From Pararhodobacter zhoushanensis (GTDB lineage Bacteria; Pseudomonadota; Alphaproteobacteria; Rhodobacterales; Rhodobacteraceae): 64,000 nucleotides of DNA. The stretch is from assembly GCF_003990445.1 (NCBI RefSeq), contig NZ_REEZ01000001.1, forward strand, positions 248,001 through 312,000. The letters run 5' to 3'. Position numbers and translations under genes: made by a program. Below are positions 3,941 to 57,461 of this stretch, piece after piece. The notes below the pieces were generated by a model. It was not told the origin of the DNA. It saw only the letters and a list, made by a program, of their open reading frames with translations, and searched no databases. How positions within the stretch are numbered: position 1 is the stretch's first letter; the number at the start of each line of letters is the position of its first letter.

Positions 3941-4023
3941 TCAAAATATCCACGGGGGGATTTTCAAGGGGGGCGCGTGCGTCCCCCTTGAAGCAGGGGG
4001 CCCGGGGGGCGGCAGCCCCCCGG
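3941..4023 (-). repeat. Structured 3'-end repeat element, copy a (after the kinase gene)
   Basis: Reading on the minus strand after the kinase stop codon: a hairpin with a 9-bp stem (4002-4023), a second hairpin with an 8-bp GC-rich stem extended by further pairs (3965-3990), then CCCCCCGTGGATATTTTGAG. The same order of parts recurs at 11040-11137 and 57177-57273. It probably acts as a transcript end or processing signal. This copy has the most degenerate core. Confidence 0.7.
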
Positions 4024-4054
4024 CACTAACAGCAACCCCCCGCACCAAAAGACC

Positions 4055-9685: not shown

Positions 9686-11032
9686 ATGTTCGACAAAATC
9701 CTCATCGCGAACCGCGGCGAGATCGCGCTGCGGGTCATCCGGGCCTGTCGCGAGATGGGCATCCAGTCGGTTGCCGTGCATTCGACCGCCGATTCGGACG
9801 CCATGCATGTGCGCATGGCCGACGAGGCGATCTGCATCGGACCCGCCCCCTCGGTTGACAGCTATCTGCACATGGCCGCGATCATCTCGGCCTGTGAAAT
9901 CTCGGGCGCGCAGGCGATCCATCCGGGCTATGGCTTCCTGTCGGAAAACGCCAGTTTCGTGCAGATGGTCGAAGATCATGACCTGACCTTCATCGGTCCC
10001 AGCGCGGCGCATATCCGCATGATGGGCGACAAGATCACCGCCAAGGAAACCGCCAAGGCGCTGGGTATCCCGGTGGTGCCGGGATCCGAGGGCGGCGTGC
10101 CGGATGTCGAGACGGCCAAGAAGGTCGCGGGCGCCATGGGCTATCCGGTGATCATCAAGGCGACCGCCGGCGGTGGCGGGCGCGGCATGAAGGTGGCGAA
10201 ATCCGAGCCCGAGCTGGAAGTCGCCTTTCGCACCGCGCGTTCGGAATCCAAAGCGGCCTTCGGCAACGACGAAGTCTATATCGAGAAATATCTGCAAAAG
10301 CCGCGTCACATCGAGATTCAGGTGTTCGGCGACGGCAAAGGCAACGCGGTCCATCTGGGCGAACGCGACTGCTCGCTGCAGCGCCGCCACCAGAAGGTGC
10401 TGGAAGAGGCCCCCGGCCCGTCGATCACGCCCGAGCAGCGTGCTGAGATCGGTGCGATCTGCGCCAATGCCATCGGCGCGATGAAATACTCGGGCGCGGG
10501 CACCATCGAGTTTCTGTACGAGGACGGCGAGTTCTATTTCATCGAGATGAACACCCGTCTGCAGGTCGAGCACCCGGTGACCGAAGCGATCTTCGGCGTC
10601 GATCTTGTGCGCGAGCAGATCCGTGTTGCCTCGGGCATGGGCCTGTCGTTCACGCAAGATGAGCTGGTGCTCAACGGCCATGCCATCGAAGTGCGCATCA
10701 ACGCCGAGAAACTGCCGAACTTCTCACCCTGCCCCGGTCTGGTGAACACCTTCCACGCACCCGGCGGGCTGGGCGTGCGGATGGATTCGGCGCTCTATGG
10801 CGGCTACCGCATCCCGCCCTATTACGACAGCCTGATCGGCAAGCTGATCGTCCACGGCCGCGACCGGCCCGAGGCGATCGCGCGGCTCAAGCGGGCCTTG
10901 GGTGAGCTGATCATTGACGGTATCGACACGACGATCCCGCTGTTCTTTGCGCTGCTTGAGAATGAAGCCGTCGTGACCGGCGAGTACAACATCCACTGGC
11001 TGGAGAAGTTTCTGGCCGAAGAGCTGGGGTGA
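9686..11032 (+). CDS. accC: Acetyl-CoA carboxylase, biotin carboxylase subunit
   Basis: Encodes the 448-residue ATP-grasp enzyme that carboxylates biotin on AccB using bicarbonate and ATP. It has the normal order of pre-ATP-grasp domain ([20 protein letters not shown]), the ATP-grasp with its glycine-rich loop ([12 protein letters not shown]), metal and bicarbonate-site residues around [14 protein letters not shown], and the biotin carboxylase C domain. Full length and intact. It is second in the accBC operon. The stop is followed within 8 bases by a structured repeat element that probably ends the transcript or separates it from aat. Confidence 0.98.
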
Positions 11033-11039
11033 CCGGGAA

Positions 11040-11137
11040 CCGGGGGGCTGCTCGCCCCCCGGACCCCCTCGCCCAAGGGGGGCGCACGCGCCCCCCTTGG
11101 GGATCCCCCCGTGGATATTTTTAGACAGAAAATAGGG
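11040..11137 (+). repeat. Structured 3'-end repeat element, copy b (after accC)
   Basis: Begins 8 bases after the accC stop. It contains a hairpin with stem CCGGGGGGC/GCCCCCCGG (11040-11062), then a perfect 13-bp hairpin with a 2-base gap at its centre (11073-11100). The core follows at 11105-11137: CCCCCCGTGGATATTTTTAG then ACAGAAAATAGG. It is the best-formed copy of the long version. It probably acts as a transcription or RNA 3'-end signal; the copy ends only 5 bases before the aat start codon. Confidence 0.78.
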
Positions 11138-20918: not shown

Positions 20919-20971
20919 ACCGGGGGTTTCACACCCCCGGACCCCCGTGGGATATTTTCAGACAGATGATG
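20919..20971. repeat. Repeat element copy c, inside the ABC operon
   Basis: A hairpin with stem CCGGGGGT/ACCCCCGG (20920-20940) is followed by a core (20942-20971) that reads ACCCCCGTGGGATATTTTCA then GACAGATGATGG. On the plus strand it has the element's usual sense order, yet both neighbouring genes are on the minus strand. It sits between the second permease and the ATPase, opposite to the direction of transcription. Confidence 0.65.
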
Positions 20972-22160: not shown

Positions 22161-23246
22161 TTACGAAATCCGGATGCGGGGATTGAGGTAGACATAGCCG
22201 ATGTCCGAGATCAGCTGCGTCACCAGCACGACCACCACGGCGACGACCGAAGACGCCAGCAGCAGTTCGATGTCGTTGTTCACGGCGGCTTCATAGAGGG
22301 TCCAGCCAAAACCGGGGTAGCTGAACAGCACCTCGGTGATCACCACCCCGTTCAGCAGCCACGGGATCTGCAGCATGATCACGGTAAACGGCGCGATCAG
22401 CGCGTTGCGCAGGGCGTGGCGCATGACGATGCTGGCAAACCCCACGCCCTTGAGGCGCGCGGTGCGGATGTATTGCTGGGTCATCACCTCGGTCATCGAG
22501 GCACGGGTGATGCGGGCGACGTAACCCATGCCGTAAAGCGCGACGGTGAGCACCGGCAGGGTGAAGTTCGACAGTGTGATCCCCTCGATCGCCGAGCGGG
22601 CGTTGCCCTGAAACAGCACGCGCCCGTCGATCCAGCCCCACTCGGCAAGGATCGGCGAGATGCCGACGGTGGACGAGGCCAGCAGCGCGATGAACACCAC
22701 GCCGGAGACATATTCGGGGGTGGCGGTTGAGGCGATGGCGAAGGTCGAGAGCGTCCGGTCGGTGCGCGACCCCTCGCGCATGCCGGCCAGCACGCCGGTG
22801 ATCAGCGCCATGGGCACCATCACGATGAGCACCCACATCATCAACAGGCCGGTTGCCCCAAGCCTTGCGCTCAGCACGGTGCCGACATTGTCCTGAAAGC
22901 GGGTGGAATAGCCCCAGTCGCCTTGCAGCAGCCCGCAGCGTTCACCGGCCCTGCCCGGATCGTTGGTCAGATCAACGCAGCGCCCGCGGACAACAACGCC
23001 GTCTTCCTCGCGCACCCAGCCCGGCACCACGCCCAACCATTCGCCGTAGCGCGTCAGCATCGGCGTGCCGTAGCCATTCTCGTTGATCCAGCTGACGACC
23101 TCGGCGTCGGTCAGGCGACCGCCCGCCTGCGTCTTGGCCAGCGTTTTCAGCTTGGCGGGCATGTTGGTGAGCGCGAAGACGATGAAGGTCAGGCACAACG
23201 CCGTGATCAACATCAGGCCGATACGCCGGGTAAGAAACAGCAGCAT
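22161..23246 (-). CDS. ABC importer permease, DppB-type
   Basis: Encodes a 361-residue permease. An N-terminal helix (FLTRRIGLMLITALCLTFIVF) is followed by a soluble insert of about 80 residues and the six-helix BPD domain. The coupling loop (YIRTARLKGVGFASIVMRHALRNALIAP) contacts the ATPase. It is the first permease of the importer, between the binding-protein gene (130 bases upstream) and the DppC-type permease. The family is peptide/nickel/opine-type uptake; the substrate is not readable from the permease. Confidence 0.93.
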   Translation of the reverse strand: MLLFLTRRIGLMLITALCLTFIVFALTNMPAKLKTLAKTQAGGRLTDAEVVSWINENGYGTPMLTRYGEWLGVVPGWVREEDGVVVRGRCVDLTNDPGRAGERCGLLQGDWGYSTRFQDNVGTVLSARLGATGLLMMWVLIVMVPMALITGVLAGMREGSRTDRTLSTFAIASTATPEYVSGVVFIALLASSTVGISPILAEWGWIDGRVLFQGNARSAIEGITLSNFTLPVLTVALYGMGYVARITRASMTEVMTQQYIRTARLKGVGFASIVMRHALRNALIAPFTVIMLQIPWLLNGVVITEVLFSYPGFGWTLYEAAVNNDIELLLASSVVAVVVVLVTQLISDIGYVYLNPRIRIS

Positions 23247-28130: not shown

Positions 28131-28209
28131 GTTAACCGCGCATTTTCTGTCGGCAAATATCCTCGGGGGGTGAGGCCCGGCACGGGCCGAGGGGGGCAGA
28201 CGGCCCCCC
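28131..28209 (-). repeat. Structured 3'-end repeat element, copy d (after the DUF5765 gene)
   Basis: On the minus strand, starting about 10 bases after the DUF5765-type gene's stop: stem GGGGGGC/GCCCCCC (28191-28209), stem GGCCCG/CGGGCC (28174-28188), then CCCCCCGAGGATATTTGCCG and ACAGAAAATG. Plus-strand bases 28130-28150 are shared almost exactly with copy e2 at 49965-49985. Confidence 0.72.
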
Positions 28210-49662: not shown

Positions 49663-49837
49663 ATGCCCCACGACCATTCCCATGATTTCGACGGTGCCTC
49701 GGGCGGCGGTCGCGGTAACCACGCTGAACTCGGGCTGGCCGGATCTGGTGGTCGCGGTCGGGATGGCTGGGCTGTTTCTGTCTTCGTCAGTGCAAATCCT
49801 GCGCCGCGCCGGCCACGAGATCGCGCACGGGCATTGA
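49663..49837 (+). pseudogene. Remnant of a cation diffusion facilitator (CDF) transporter gene
   Basis: A ribosome site (GGAAGAAAGAGA) and ATG at 49663 start a typical His-rich CDF N-terminus (MPHDHSHDFDGAS). After about 15 codons the frame changes. From 49715 to 49837 another frame gives a typical CDF end (NSGWPDLVVAVGMAGLFLSS, then SVQILRR) and the stop. About 500 bases of transmembrane coding sequence are missing. It is divergent from the MerR-type gene, the usual regulator-transporter pair, so an internal deletion with frameshift is the simplest account. Confidence 0.72.
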
Positions 49838-49849
49838 GCCGGCAGGTGC

Positions 49850-49947
49850 GGGGCTCGGCCCCCCTTCGAGGGGGCCGAGCCCCGTCCGGGGGCGCTGCCC
49901 CCGCCGGGCCGTACCGGCCCGCCCCCGGGATATTTAAAGACAGAAAA
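49850..49947 (+). repeat. Structured 3'-end repeat element, copy e1 (after the CDF remnant)
   Basis: Three hairpins follow the remnant's stop: a 14-bp stem GGGGCTCGGCCCCC (49850-49883), CGGGGGC/GCCCCCG (49887-49903) and CGGGCCG/CGGCCCG (49905-49921). The core then reads GCCCCCGGGATATTTAAAG and ACAGAAAATAGG. It faces copy e2 in inverted orientation. Confidence 0.72.
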
Positions 49948-49964
49948 TAGGGGCGTTAACATTC

Positions 49965-50046
49965 CGTTAACCGCGCATTTTCTGTCTGAAAATATCCTCG
50001 GGGGGTGAATTCGGCTTTAGCCGAAGAGGGGGGCAGACGGCCCCCC
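49965..50046 (-). repeat. Structured 3'-end repeat element, copy e2 (after anmK)
   Basis: On the minus strand after the anmK stop: stem GGGGGGC/GCCCCCC with loop CGTCT (50028-50046), stem TTCGGC/GCCGAA (50010-50025), then CCCCCCGAGGATATTTTCAG and ACAGAAAATG. It shares the extended block TTAACCGCGCATTTTCTGTC with copy d. Confidence 0.75.
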
Positions 50047-56010: not shown

Positions 56011-57173
56011 TGGATTTCGGACTGTCAGACGAGCAGCGGATGATCGTTGAGACGACGCGCGCCTTCGTCGAAAACGAACTATATCCACACGAAGCGCTGG
56101 TCGAGCGGACGGGTCATTTGCCGATTGAGCTGATCCGCGAGATCCAGAAAAAGGCCATGGACGCAGGGCTTTACGCGGCGAACATGCCAGAGGACATCGG
56201 CGGCGCCGGCCTCGATACGCTCAGCTGGCTGCTCTACGAGCGAGAGCTCGGCCGGGCGAATTATGCGCTGCATTGGACCTGTGTTGCGCGCCCGTCCAAC
56301 ATCCTGCTGGCCGGAACGCCCGGGCAGCGTGAAAAGTACCTCACGCCCTGCATTCGGGGCGAAACCTGGGATTGCCTGGCGATGACGGAACCCGGTGCGG
56401 GTTCTGATCTGCGTGGAATGACCGCTTCGGCGCGGCAGGACGGCGGCGACTGGGTGCTCAACGGCACCAAGCATTTCATCAGCCACGCCGATATCGCGGG
56501 TTTCACCATCGCCTTCATGGCAACCGGAGAAGAGGAGACCGCGCGCGGGCGCAAGAAACGCATCACGGCCTTCTTCGTCGACAAGGGCACGCCGGGATTC
56601 ACCGTTCGCGACGGGTACCGCAACGTCTCGCATCGCGGCTATTCCAACGCGGTGCTGGAGTTCGATGCCTGCCGCGTTCCTGCCGAGAATGTCTTGGGGG
56701 AGGTTCATCACGGCTTTGATGTCGCCAACCAATGGCTCGGCGCCACCCGCCTGCAGGTCGCTGCCACCTGTCTCGGCCGCGCCGACCGCGCACTGGGCCA
56801 CGCGCTGAGCTGGGCCGCCGAGCGCAAGCAGTTTGGCCAGCAGATTGGCAAATTCCAGGGCGTCTCTTTCAAGTTGGCCGACATGGCGCTCGAACTGAAG
56901 GCCGCGCAATTGCTGACGCTCGAAGCCGGATGGAAATTTGATCAAGGCAGCGTGACCGATGCCGATATGGCGATGGCCAAGCTCAAGGCCACCGAGGCGC
57001 TGGCGATGATTGCCGACGAAGCGATCCAGATCCACGGTGGCATGGGGCTGATGGACGAGCTGCCCCTGGAGCGGATCTGGCGCGATGCGCGGGTCGAGCG
57101 GATCTGGGAAGGCACCAGCGAAATCCAAAGGCATATCATTTCACGAGAACTGTTGCGCTCGGTCGGCGGCTGA
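56010..57173 (+). CDS. Acyl-CoA dehydrogenase (CaiA-like, gamma-butyrobetainyl/crotonobetainyl-CoA type)
   Basis: Encodes a 387-residue flavoenzyme with all acyl-CoA dehydrogenase parts: N-terminal helical domain (MDFGLSDEQRMIVETTRAFV), middle beta domain (AMTEPGAGSDLRGM) and C-terminal helices ending in the catalytic-Glu motif RIWEGTSEIQRH. The sequence begins like E. coli CaiA. Position after the carnitine genes, with a one-base overlap, points to oxidation of gamma-butyrobetainyl-CoA to crotonobetainyl-CoA. Copy f1 of the repeat follows directly. Confidence 0.92.
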   Translation: MDFGLSDEQRMIVETTRAFVENELYPHEALVERTGHLPIELIREIQKKAMDAGLYAANMPEDIGGAGLDTLSWLLYERELGRANYALHWTCVARPSNILLAGTPGQREKYLTPCIRGETWDCLAMTEPGAGSDLRGMTASARQDGGDWVLNGTKHFISHADIAGFTIAFMATGEEETARGRKKRITAFFVDKGTPGFTVRDGYRNVSHRGYSNAVLEFDACRVPAENVLGEVHHGFDVANQWLGATRLQVAATCLGRADRALGHALSWAAERKQFGQQIGKFQGVSFKLADMALELKAAQLLTLEAGWKFDQGSVTDADMAMAKLKATEALAMIADEAIQIHGGMGLMDELPLERIWRDARVERIWEGTSEIQRHIISRELLRSVGG

Positions 57174-57176
57174 AGA

Positions 57177-57273
57177 TCGGGGGGCTCCTCGCCCCCCGAA
57201 CCCCCTCGCCAAAGGAGGACGCACGCGCCCCCCTTTGGTAACCCCCCGTGGATATTTTCAGACAGATGATGGA
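57177..57273 (+). repeat. Structured 3'-end repeat element, copy f1 (after the acyl-CoA dehydrogenase)
   Basis: Begins 4 bases after the stop: stem TCGGGGGGC/GCCCCCCGA (57177-57199; copy b has C-G at the first pair instead), an imperfect second hairpin (57209-57238), then CCCCCCGTGGATATTTTCAG and ACAGATGATGG. It should end or process the upstream carnitine transcript. Confidence 0.75.
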
Positions 57274-57351
57274 ACGAAATGTTTACTTTTTGTCCCTATG
57301 ATAGCGGGGCGGTACAGGCAGGGATGCCGATGACCGCGGCAGGTGATGTTT

Positions 57352-57377
57352 CCCGGTCCCCTTGGCTGGGGACCGGG
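57352..57377. repeat. Perfect 10-bp hairpin between repeat copies f1 and f2
   Basis: CCCGGTCCCC and GGGGACCGGG flank a 6-base loop. It lies midway in the 320-base gap before the CoA-ligase gene. No T run follows, and its role is unknown. Confidence 0.55.
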
Positions 57378-57390
57378 CGACAACGCCGCG

Positions 57391-57461
57391 ATATCATCTG
57401 TCCGGAAATATCCTCGGGGGGTGAATTGGCCATCGGCCAAGAGGGGGGCAGACGGCCCCCC
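57391..57461 (-). repeat. Structured 3'-end repeat element, copy f2 (wrong-facing, before the CoA-ligase gene)
   Basis: On the minus strand: stem GGGGGGC/GCCCCCC (57443-57461), stem TTGGCC/GGCCAA (57426-57440), then CCCCCCGAGGATATTTCCGG and ACAGATGAT. In other copies a minus-strand gene ends just beside the hairpins; here the neighbour is the start of a plus-strand gene, so this copy has no gene to terminate. Confidence 0.72.

Follow-up and report, generated by a model that had tools for sequence, protein, structure and literature searches.

A repeat with a covarying third pyrimidine run at gene ends of Pararhodobacter zhoushanensis, a candidate non-canonical transcript-end element

Known triplex repeats, extragenic palindromes and terminators

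The intrastrand triplex repeats PIT, BoxC and TM of E. coli (Holder et al. 2015, PMC4666352) are the closest described counterparts of the element reported here. As that paper describes PIT, BoxC and TMECO, they are short G/C-rich repeats with three consecutive blocks of triplex complementarity, reach very different copy numbers among close relatives and occur in palindromic copies, all of which holds for our element as well. TMECO is, by the same account, of class II (Y-R-R) and commoner upstream than downstream of genes, at no specific distance, whereas our element reads as class III on the sense strand and class I on the template strand, is tied to RTATTT and lies mainly at gene 3' ends. 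The same paper reports no terminator activity for PIT elements and no stable triplex in vivo for TM, and states that class III is possible in RNA while the purine motif is not; the words Rhodobacter, Paracoccus and Alphaproteobacteria are absent from the main text (PMC4666352). A second likeness is to REP/BIME repeats, which PMC2817692 presents as mosaic extragenic palindromes in more than 100 copies, with pairs in inverted arrangement on either side of a middle segment (BIME-1), compensatory changes and strain-to-strain differences. Our element has these traits too, with many extragenic palindromes that are often inverted, and differs from REP/BIME in its mostly stable positions, its AT-rich core and third run, and the absence of a RAYT match from the genome.

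As in intrinsic (Rho-independent) terminators, a GC hairpin soon after a stop codon is followed by an AU-rich stretch; unlike them, the element has extra C's between hairpin and AU stretch, no U-run, and a conserved module that runs on for about 10 bases downstream. The preliminary description had set it apart from ordinary U-run terminators, and a C-run and RTATTT do stand directly after the hairpin, where the U-run would be. In the open-access literature that we searched, mostly by listings, intrastrand triplex repeats are known as a kind, and a family with an AT core, modules, a gene-end place and sense polarity was not found described, a statement that extends to that search. Bacterial triplex-forming repeats have so far been without clear function. 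The triplex-type motif here is tied to one kind of place, points mainly one way with respect to transcription and has a single signal beside it, and its letters covary in the manner that a triplex calls for, both in its own genus and in a dozen others; place, polarity, signal and covariation therefore make possible a direct genetic test of a triple-helix role in bacterial expression. Our best guess is that it is a non-canonical transcript-end element, and as such a candidate terminator or insulator part for alphaproteobacteria.

Copies, modules, pairs and their placement

In the window, the whole 64,000-nucleotide stretch of DNA analysed, a search for GATATTT-N3-GACAGA allowing up to 2 mismatches returned 8 sites against 0.24 expected in the shuffled window. 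Seven are exact; the eighth (10277-10292, 2 mismatches) lies within the accC reading frame without a preceding hairpin or C-run. The seven exact copies (b to h) and the variant copy a bear out an earlier count of about eight, every core falling inside the interval assigned to its copy, and the common plan of one or more hairpins, a C-run and GATATTT is present in all eight. The core had been called fixed and AT-rich; an AT-rich core is indeed present, but GACAGA is not invariant and is one of several modules. With Rfam 15, nothing scored above the gathering score on the eight copies in a scan of the whole window, and the e/f pair gave sub-threshold matches only, the top one to a miRNA model, so that a known Rfam family was rejected as the identity of the element. 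The same scan matched Cis52_sRNA (RF02647, 73.1 bits) at 22406-22582 on the plus strand, antisense to a predicted minus-strand gene at 22161-23246.

Copy a (3941..4023, minus strand) is a single copy between convergent genes, 3' of a histidine-kinase gene (stop 4055), with hairpin arm AAGGGGG, third run TCCCCCC and TGAGAGCAAAG after its GATATTT (3944-3950). It had been said to keep only the left part of the core, and GATATTT is indeed kept, but what follows is a different module, GAGCAAAG, and not a broken core. Copy b (11040..11137, plus strand; core 11114-11129), also single, has a biotin-carboxylase gene (stop 11032) on one side and aat (start 11143) on the other, and joins hairpin arm AAGGGGGG to third run TCCCCCC. 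Single copy c (20919..20971, plus strand; core 20951-20966; runs GGGGG / CCCCC / CCCCC) is flanked by transport genes that both lie on the minus strand, opposite to it, and single copy d (28131..28209, minus strand; core 28146-28161) has arms GGGGGG and CCCCCC, then a small inner hairpin and then CCCCCC.

Copies e and f form one palindrome around TTAA-N7-TTAA (49956..49970). In its left half, copy e (49850..49947, plus strand), a hairpin (49850-49883) is followed by the purine arm GGGGG (49888-49892), CCCCC (49898-49902), an inner hairpin, the third run CCCCC (49922-49926), GG, GATATTT (49929-49935) and GACAGA (49939-49944). The right half, copy f (49965..50046, minus strand), lies 3' of anmK (stop 50065) and comprises GGGGGG (50041-50046), CCCCCC (50028-50033), a small hairpin (50010-50025), the third run CCCCCC (50000-50005), GATATTT (49990-49996) and GACAGA (49981-49986). 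The RNA fold predicted for the pair has -154.3 kcal/mol (z = -9.8), a value that 0 of 200 shuffled sequences reached. A 51-codon plus-strand reading frame (49682-49837) stops just before copy e; it resembles the last part of a membrane protein and is possibly what remains of a gene. The gene ahead of copy g (57177..57273, plus strand; core 57251-57266) has its stop at 57173 and, by its translation, looks like an acyl-CoA dehydrogenase gene; copy h (57391..57461, minus strand; core 57397-57412) faces copy g, and both genes that flank h are on the plus strand. Between the facing cores of g and h lie 130 bases (57267-57396), against about 29-36 in the 19 close pairs described below, and the two are perhaps an enlarged pair. 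Six of the eight copies had been placed within about 30 bases after a sense stop codon, where we find them: counted from the gene end to the start assigned to each copy, the distance is 32 for copy a, 8 for b, 10 for d, 13 for e, 19 for f and 4 for g; copies c and h have no same-strand stop before them.

The 4.83-Mb genome holds 154 exact copies of GATATTT-N3-GACAGA and, as a control, 0 of the reversed pattern. We analysed 100 of the 154, and closer analyses used an 852-kb sample of the same genome, made up of the window and further stretches that were partly picked for having copies. GATATTT occurs 91 times in this sample, in 76 cases with a C-rich stretch directly before it; of these 76, 47 lead to GACAGA, 28 to GAGCAAAG or GCATAAAG, and 1 is a chance site in a gene. 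The resulting 75 copies carry GACAGA-TGAT (23), GACAGA-AAAT (23), GACAGA-AAAC (1), GAGCAAAG (17) or GCATAAAG (11). GATATTT-N3-GACAGA is one dialect of a larger element in which the segment after GATATTT-N3 is an exchangeable module, and the idea that GACAGA is the core was discarded because other modules take the same place. By proportion, the whole genome would hold about 400 copies, a figure that may be too high because the sample was partly chosen for copies.

The 75 copies amount to 56 elements, 37 singles and 19 head-to-head pairs, each pair being one palindrome; regarding the copies as separate units, as had been done, thus suits the 37 singles but not the many that are halves of one palindrome. 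In the pairs the two GATATTT starts are 54-61 bases apart (54-55 in 8 pairs, 57-61 in 11), and the same module class occupies both halves in 15 of 19, against 8.2 expected (p = 0.0007), although mixed pairs occur. By eye, the centres are often TTAA-N7-TTAA, which, as at 49956-49970, resembles the full CtrA site. The tight spacing and the shared module class, together with the occurrence of copies in both orientations, would suit an intergenic element that works at the DNA level, as a topological sink or as an insulator, whether it is a palindrome bound by a protein or a non-B structure (cruciform or triplex). Its symmetric RTATTT core and module would then be a protein site with half-sites at a set spacing. 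It also counts for such an element that, of the possible triplexes, the class I form of the purine motif, on the template strand, is chemically the easier one. We nevertheless regard it as unlikely: singles outnumber pairs (37 versus 19), a symmetric DNA site should not show sense polarity, and both the spacing and the module identity may be inherited because the copies share ancestry.

None of the 75 copies lies within a predicted gene and 53 follow a same-strand stop, 33 at convergent junctions and 20 between co-directional genes, with 37-237 bases from stop to GATATTT; as the preliminary description had anticipated, placement relative to gene ends is not random. The remaining copies comprise 18 that face the wrong way between antisense genes, 10 of them in pairs, and 4 between divergent genes. 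Among the 37 singles, 27 have a same-strand stop ahead of them, 8 face the wrong way and 2 lie between divergent genes. In 10 of the 17 convergent and 6 of the 8 wrong-way singles, the distance from the end of GATATTT to the opposite gene's stop is 15-30 bases; most copies therefore lie at some gene's end. The 19 pairs are distributed over convergent (8), co-directional (10) and divergent (1) neighbours. Orientation toward gene ends is a strong bias and no rule, and the orientation counts for copies, pairs and singles carry some error because the simple codon-usage caller that supplied the genes is imperfect, having missed the 51-codon frame that ends at 49837. Four annotated 30-kb plasmid stretches hold few copies by our filter: 1 copy (L370), 1 clear copy besides two weak matches, one of them inside a gene (L371), 2 copies (L372) and 0 copies (L373); 2 of the 4 clear plasmid copies follow a same-strand stop, by 68-69 bases, and the 2 copies in an annotated Cereibacter plasmid stretch are one wrong-way and one divergent.

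Canonical U-run terminators occur at 1 of 46 element-bearing gene ends versus 22 of 272 ends without the element (p = 0.12), and among convergent ends at 1 of 29 versus 11 of 71 (p = 0.08), a depletion that is suggestive only. Copy b has 13 bases between its core and the aat start codon, a spacing that is identical in the genome G166 (where the core is GATACTT), and in G149 the distance from a GATATTT-N3-G to the aat match is 17 bases. With copy b so close to its start, aat must therefore be read through or have its promoter inside the element, and this copy and the wrong-way copies argue against a simple strong terminator. The position of copy b between the biotin-carboxylase gene and aat, with its spacing kept in G166, and the very stable fold of the e/f pair are what one might expect of a REP-like mRNA 3'-end stabiliser or processing barrier, with read-through, exonucleases halted at the hairpin or triplex, and the core as a cleavage or protein site. 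Such a role seems to us rather unlikely, since neither the fixed AT-rich core nor the parallel third run is needed for it and 8 of the 19 pairs lie between convergent genes, each half serving one gene. In R. sphaeroides, a PNPase study reports that MEME found no motif upstream of pnp-enriched 3' ends (PMC7866481).

Parallel covariation of the third run with the hairpin

The element begins with a GC-rich hairpin whose 5' arm is purine (R) and whose 3' arm is pyrimidine (Y). A short linker or a small additional hairpin leads on to the C-run that precedes GATATTT (Y3), and the AT-rich core RTATTT and the exchangeable module come last. Y3 is more than a passive stretch, as it covaries with R in parallel order: where R has internal A's, Y3 tends to have T's in parallel register, as in the R/Y3 combinations AGGAGGG/TCCTCCC, GAGGAGGG/CTCCTCCC, GAAGGGGG/CTTCCCCC and GGGAGGA/CCCTCCT. 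Y3 thus tends to be the parallel complement of R, which is the order of a pyrimidine-motif intrastrand triplex, with R, Y and third strand in Hoogsteen-type mirror or parallel arrangement. In a first count, 187 distinct hairpin/run combinations included 104 with a purine tract, of which 31 were informative; parallel order was better in 19, antiparallel in 0, and 12 were tied, and 0 of 2000 permutations reached the score.

A wider and looser detection covered 607 distinct anchors, 459 of them with a run and 421 with an R:Y hairpin, and its 49 informative unique combinations divided into 29 parallel, 9 antiparallel and 11 tied. The parallel score was 294 versus 241.8 +/- 6.6 after permutation, a value that 0 of 5000 permutations reached; the antiparallel score, 262 versus 235.4 +/- 6.1, also exceeded all 5000, less strongly. 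All nine antiparallel winners won by one base, and 8 of them have A's only at the end of R. Mismatches in this set are 23 unique combinations with A in R and no T in Y3 and 23 of the reverse kind, and run lengths in all-G/all-C combinations correlate weakly (r = 0.35, n = 69). When both an internal A and an internal T were required, 23 combinations gave 17 parallel, 5 tied and 1 antiparallel, the last with a shortened hairpin.

The same order appeared when loci were fetched solely by a T-bearing run beside the core. Among the matches listed there were 104 such loci, 43 parallel, 0 antiparallel and 13 tied, the remainder being 3 duplicates and 45 uninformative loci (17 with an all-G arm and 28 without a detected R:Y hairpin, some of these 28 being chance matches inside genes); in distinct combinations among the loci listed, 19 were parallel versus 0 antiparallel. 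The 43 parallel loci, again among those listed, fall into 13 genera, 22 in the own genus and 21 in 12 others, one of these 21 (L396) being parallel by 4 bases versus 3. Examples from other genera are GGGGGAGG with CCCCCTCC in the genomes G134, G053, G065 and G068, GGGGAGG/CCCCTCC in G068 and G118, and GGGAGGGG with CCCTCCCC in G142. At L326 the rule is kept despite a small hairpin between Y and Y3 (run CTCCTCCCC after GAGGAGGGG); L329, with an all-G arm and the run CCTCCC, is an exception, although with many all-G arms the T looks like a part of the linker. Two other explanations were rejected. Strand exchange, in which Y3 rivals Y for R by Watson-Crick pairing, would need a direct repeat of Y, whereas runs with internal T's show mirror order, as a triplex needs; and pairing of Y3 solely with the opposite G-run of the palindrome leaves the T's of CCTCCC unmatched (434107/434162) and is further excluded because single copies obey the same rule.

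Scanning the 852 kb for R-Y-Y3 with at least 6 parallel matches and a linker of at most 10 gave 28 motifs, 21 of them with RTATTT within 14 bases after and 1 in a gene. The antiparallel scan gave 15 motifs, 10 of them before RTATTT, since an all-C run matches in either order. Among the motifs that have an A in R and also a T in the run, 21 are parallel and 6 antiparallel. The reversed 852-kb sequence contained 0 motifs, parallel or antiparallel, and since reversal turns class III into class IV, the E. coli-type polarity of TMECO and BoxC (class II Y-R-R, class IV on the other strand) is absent from the sample, 0 versus 28 of class III/I. The motif is polar and lies mainly at gene ends, and by its letters it would be class III on the sense strand or, equivalently, purine-motif class I on the template strand.

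We tentatively favour a model, to which we give somewhat less than an even chance, whereby a triplex hairpin forms the transcript end. During transcription of a gene end, R, Y and Y3 of the sense RNA or of the template DNA would come together as a three-stranded clamp whose end lies about 3 bases ahead of the AU-rich core, and the clamp together with a weak AUAUUU hybrid would cause RNA polymerase to be released or to pause, leaving a protected 3' end. In the case of RNA, Y3 would have emerged from the polymerase when AUAUUU is in the hybrid, that is, a terminator geometry with a three-stranded hairpin, and head-to-head pairs would have the same effect for both genes of a junction. Covariation, polarity and place are what the sequences show; the folded strand (RNA or DNA) and the effect (termination or protection) are what we infer. 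Several points weigh against a terminator geometry: the element lacks a U-run, some copies face the wrong way, one lies just before aat, and PIT elements tested negative as terminators. Consecutive C+.G-C triples are unfavourable at neutral pH, which speaks against the proposed triplex. It is a doubtful extension of this model that the element represents a lineage-wide class of terminators or transcript ends working by intrastrand triplex, in which Y3 would dock, the polymerase would let go at RTATTT, and pairs would act two-way for converging genes. The elemental-pause consensus is G-10 Y-1 G+1; a reading of GATATTT-N3-G as such a pause was rejected, because N3 ends in A or G in 68 of the 75 copies and in C in only 7.

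Relatives and change at fixed positions

A search across Rhodobacterales had been proposed, and the element is present in many of them. The exact GACAGA form occurs in 11 of 19 genomes of the own genus, its own included, with 0 to 162 copies, and across the family in 22 of 149 genomes (one per genus); a stricter pattern with C-run was found in 1 of 190 class-wide genomes, its own, only 3 of the 190 belonging to the family. Among the matches listed, named genomes with the GACAGA form include Gemmobacter, Pseudogemmobacter, Tabrizicola, Pseudotabrizicola, Cereibacter, Paracoccus, Pararhodobacter, Tropicimonas, Antarctobacter and others. AGTATTT and further modules are also seen in stretches of other genera, and 33 of the 149 family genomes have a T-bearing run ahead of GAGTATTT. 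A palindrome pattern search found 74 in its own genome (G000), 66 in G149, 63 in G166, 41 in G160, 22 in G158 and fewer in seven others; palindromes thus occur in 12 of the genus's 19 genomes, and all controls gave 0. The element was also seen on contigs L166, L173, L253, L256 (Enemella evansiae TN21-6) and L257 (Novosphingobium sp. MW5); in assemblies named outside Rhodobacteraceae it perhaps reflects contamination of those assemblies, or transfer.

G149, G150, G158 and G160, members of the same genus, have 0 exact GACAGA copies, yet the element is present with other modules. The 3' end of anmK carries the palindrome in G000, G166, G149 and G160 and an imperfect one in G158, while in G150 the second half has decayed; the plan is shared by G166, G149, G160, G150 and G158, four of them with other modules (GAACAAAG in G149 and G150, GCGCAAAG in G160, GATTAAAG in G158). 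At the same gene end G162 has one single GACAGA copy and G151 one single GAGTATTT copy, and none was visible within 330 bases in L125, L129, L131 and L132 (G152, G164, G155 and G163). G166 and G000 are collinear over the compared stretch at about 93% identity. Of 20 element loci, all but 383604 inspected in G166, 17 still have one or more GATATTT copies there; one more (259114) has the element with a changed core, and one lies in unrelated sequence. The module differs between the two genomes at five loci, 151339 (both halves, GCATAAAG versus GAGCAAAG), 297929, 251944, 430837 and 434162, and at loci 121780 and 143820 the hairpin alleles are swapped, both arms and the third run having changed together, which looks like gene conversion among copies at fixed positions.

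The differing and swapped alleles and modules of two close relatives, the range of 0 to 162 exact copies within the genus and the varying number of hairpin units are what a selfish or neutral repeat of the REP, BIME or MITE kind, homogenised by gene conversion and without host function, would be expected to leave. We hold this to be decidedly unlikely, given that positions are mostly kept while letters change and structure persists, that 0 of 75 copies lie inside predicted genes and that, among the loci listed, parallel covariation extends over 13 genera. Nor did the RAYT-type transposase family (PF01797, Y1_Tnp) have a match in G000, G166, G149 or G160, 2 of the 19 genomes of the genus having one, and a RAYT-driven REP was rejected as the own genome is without a family match. 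Beside the elements, the copy number of GGGGCGGCAGCCCC-type hairpin units varies between G000 and G166, namely at the G166 counterparts of window positions 3950-4050 and of C1 121780 and C1 143820.
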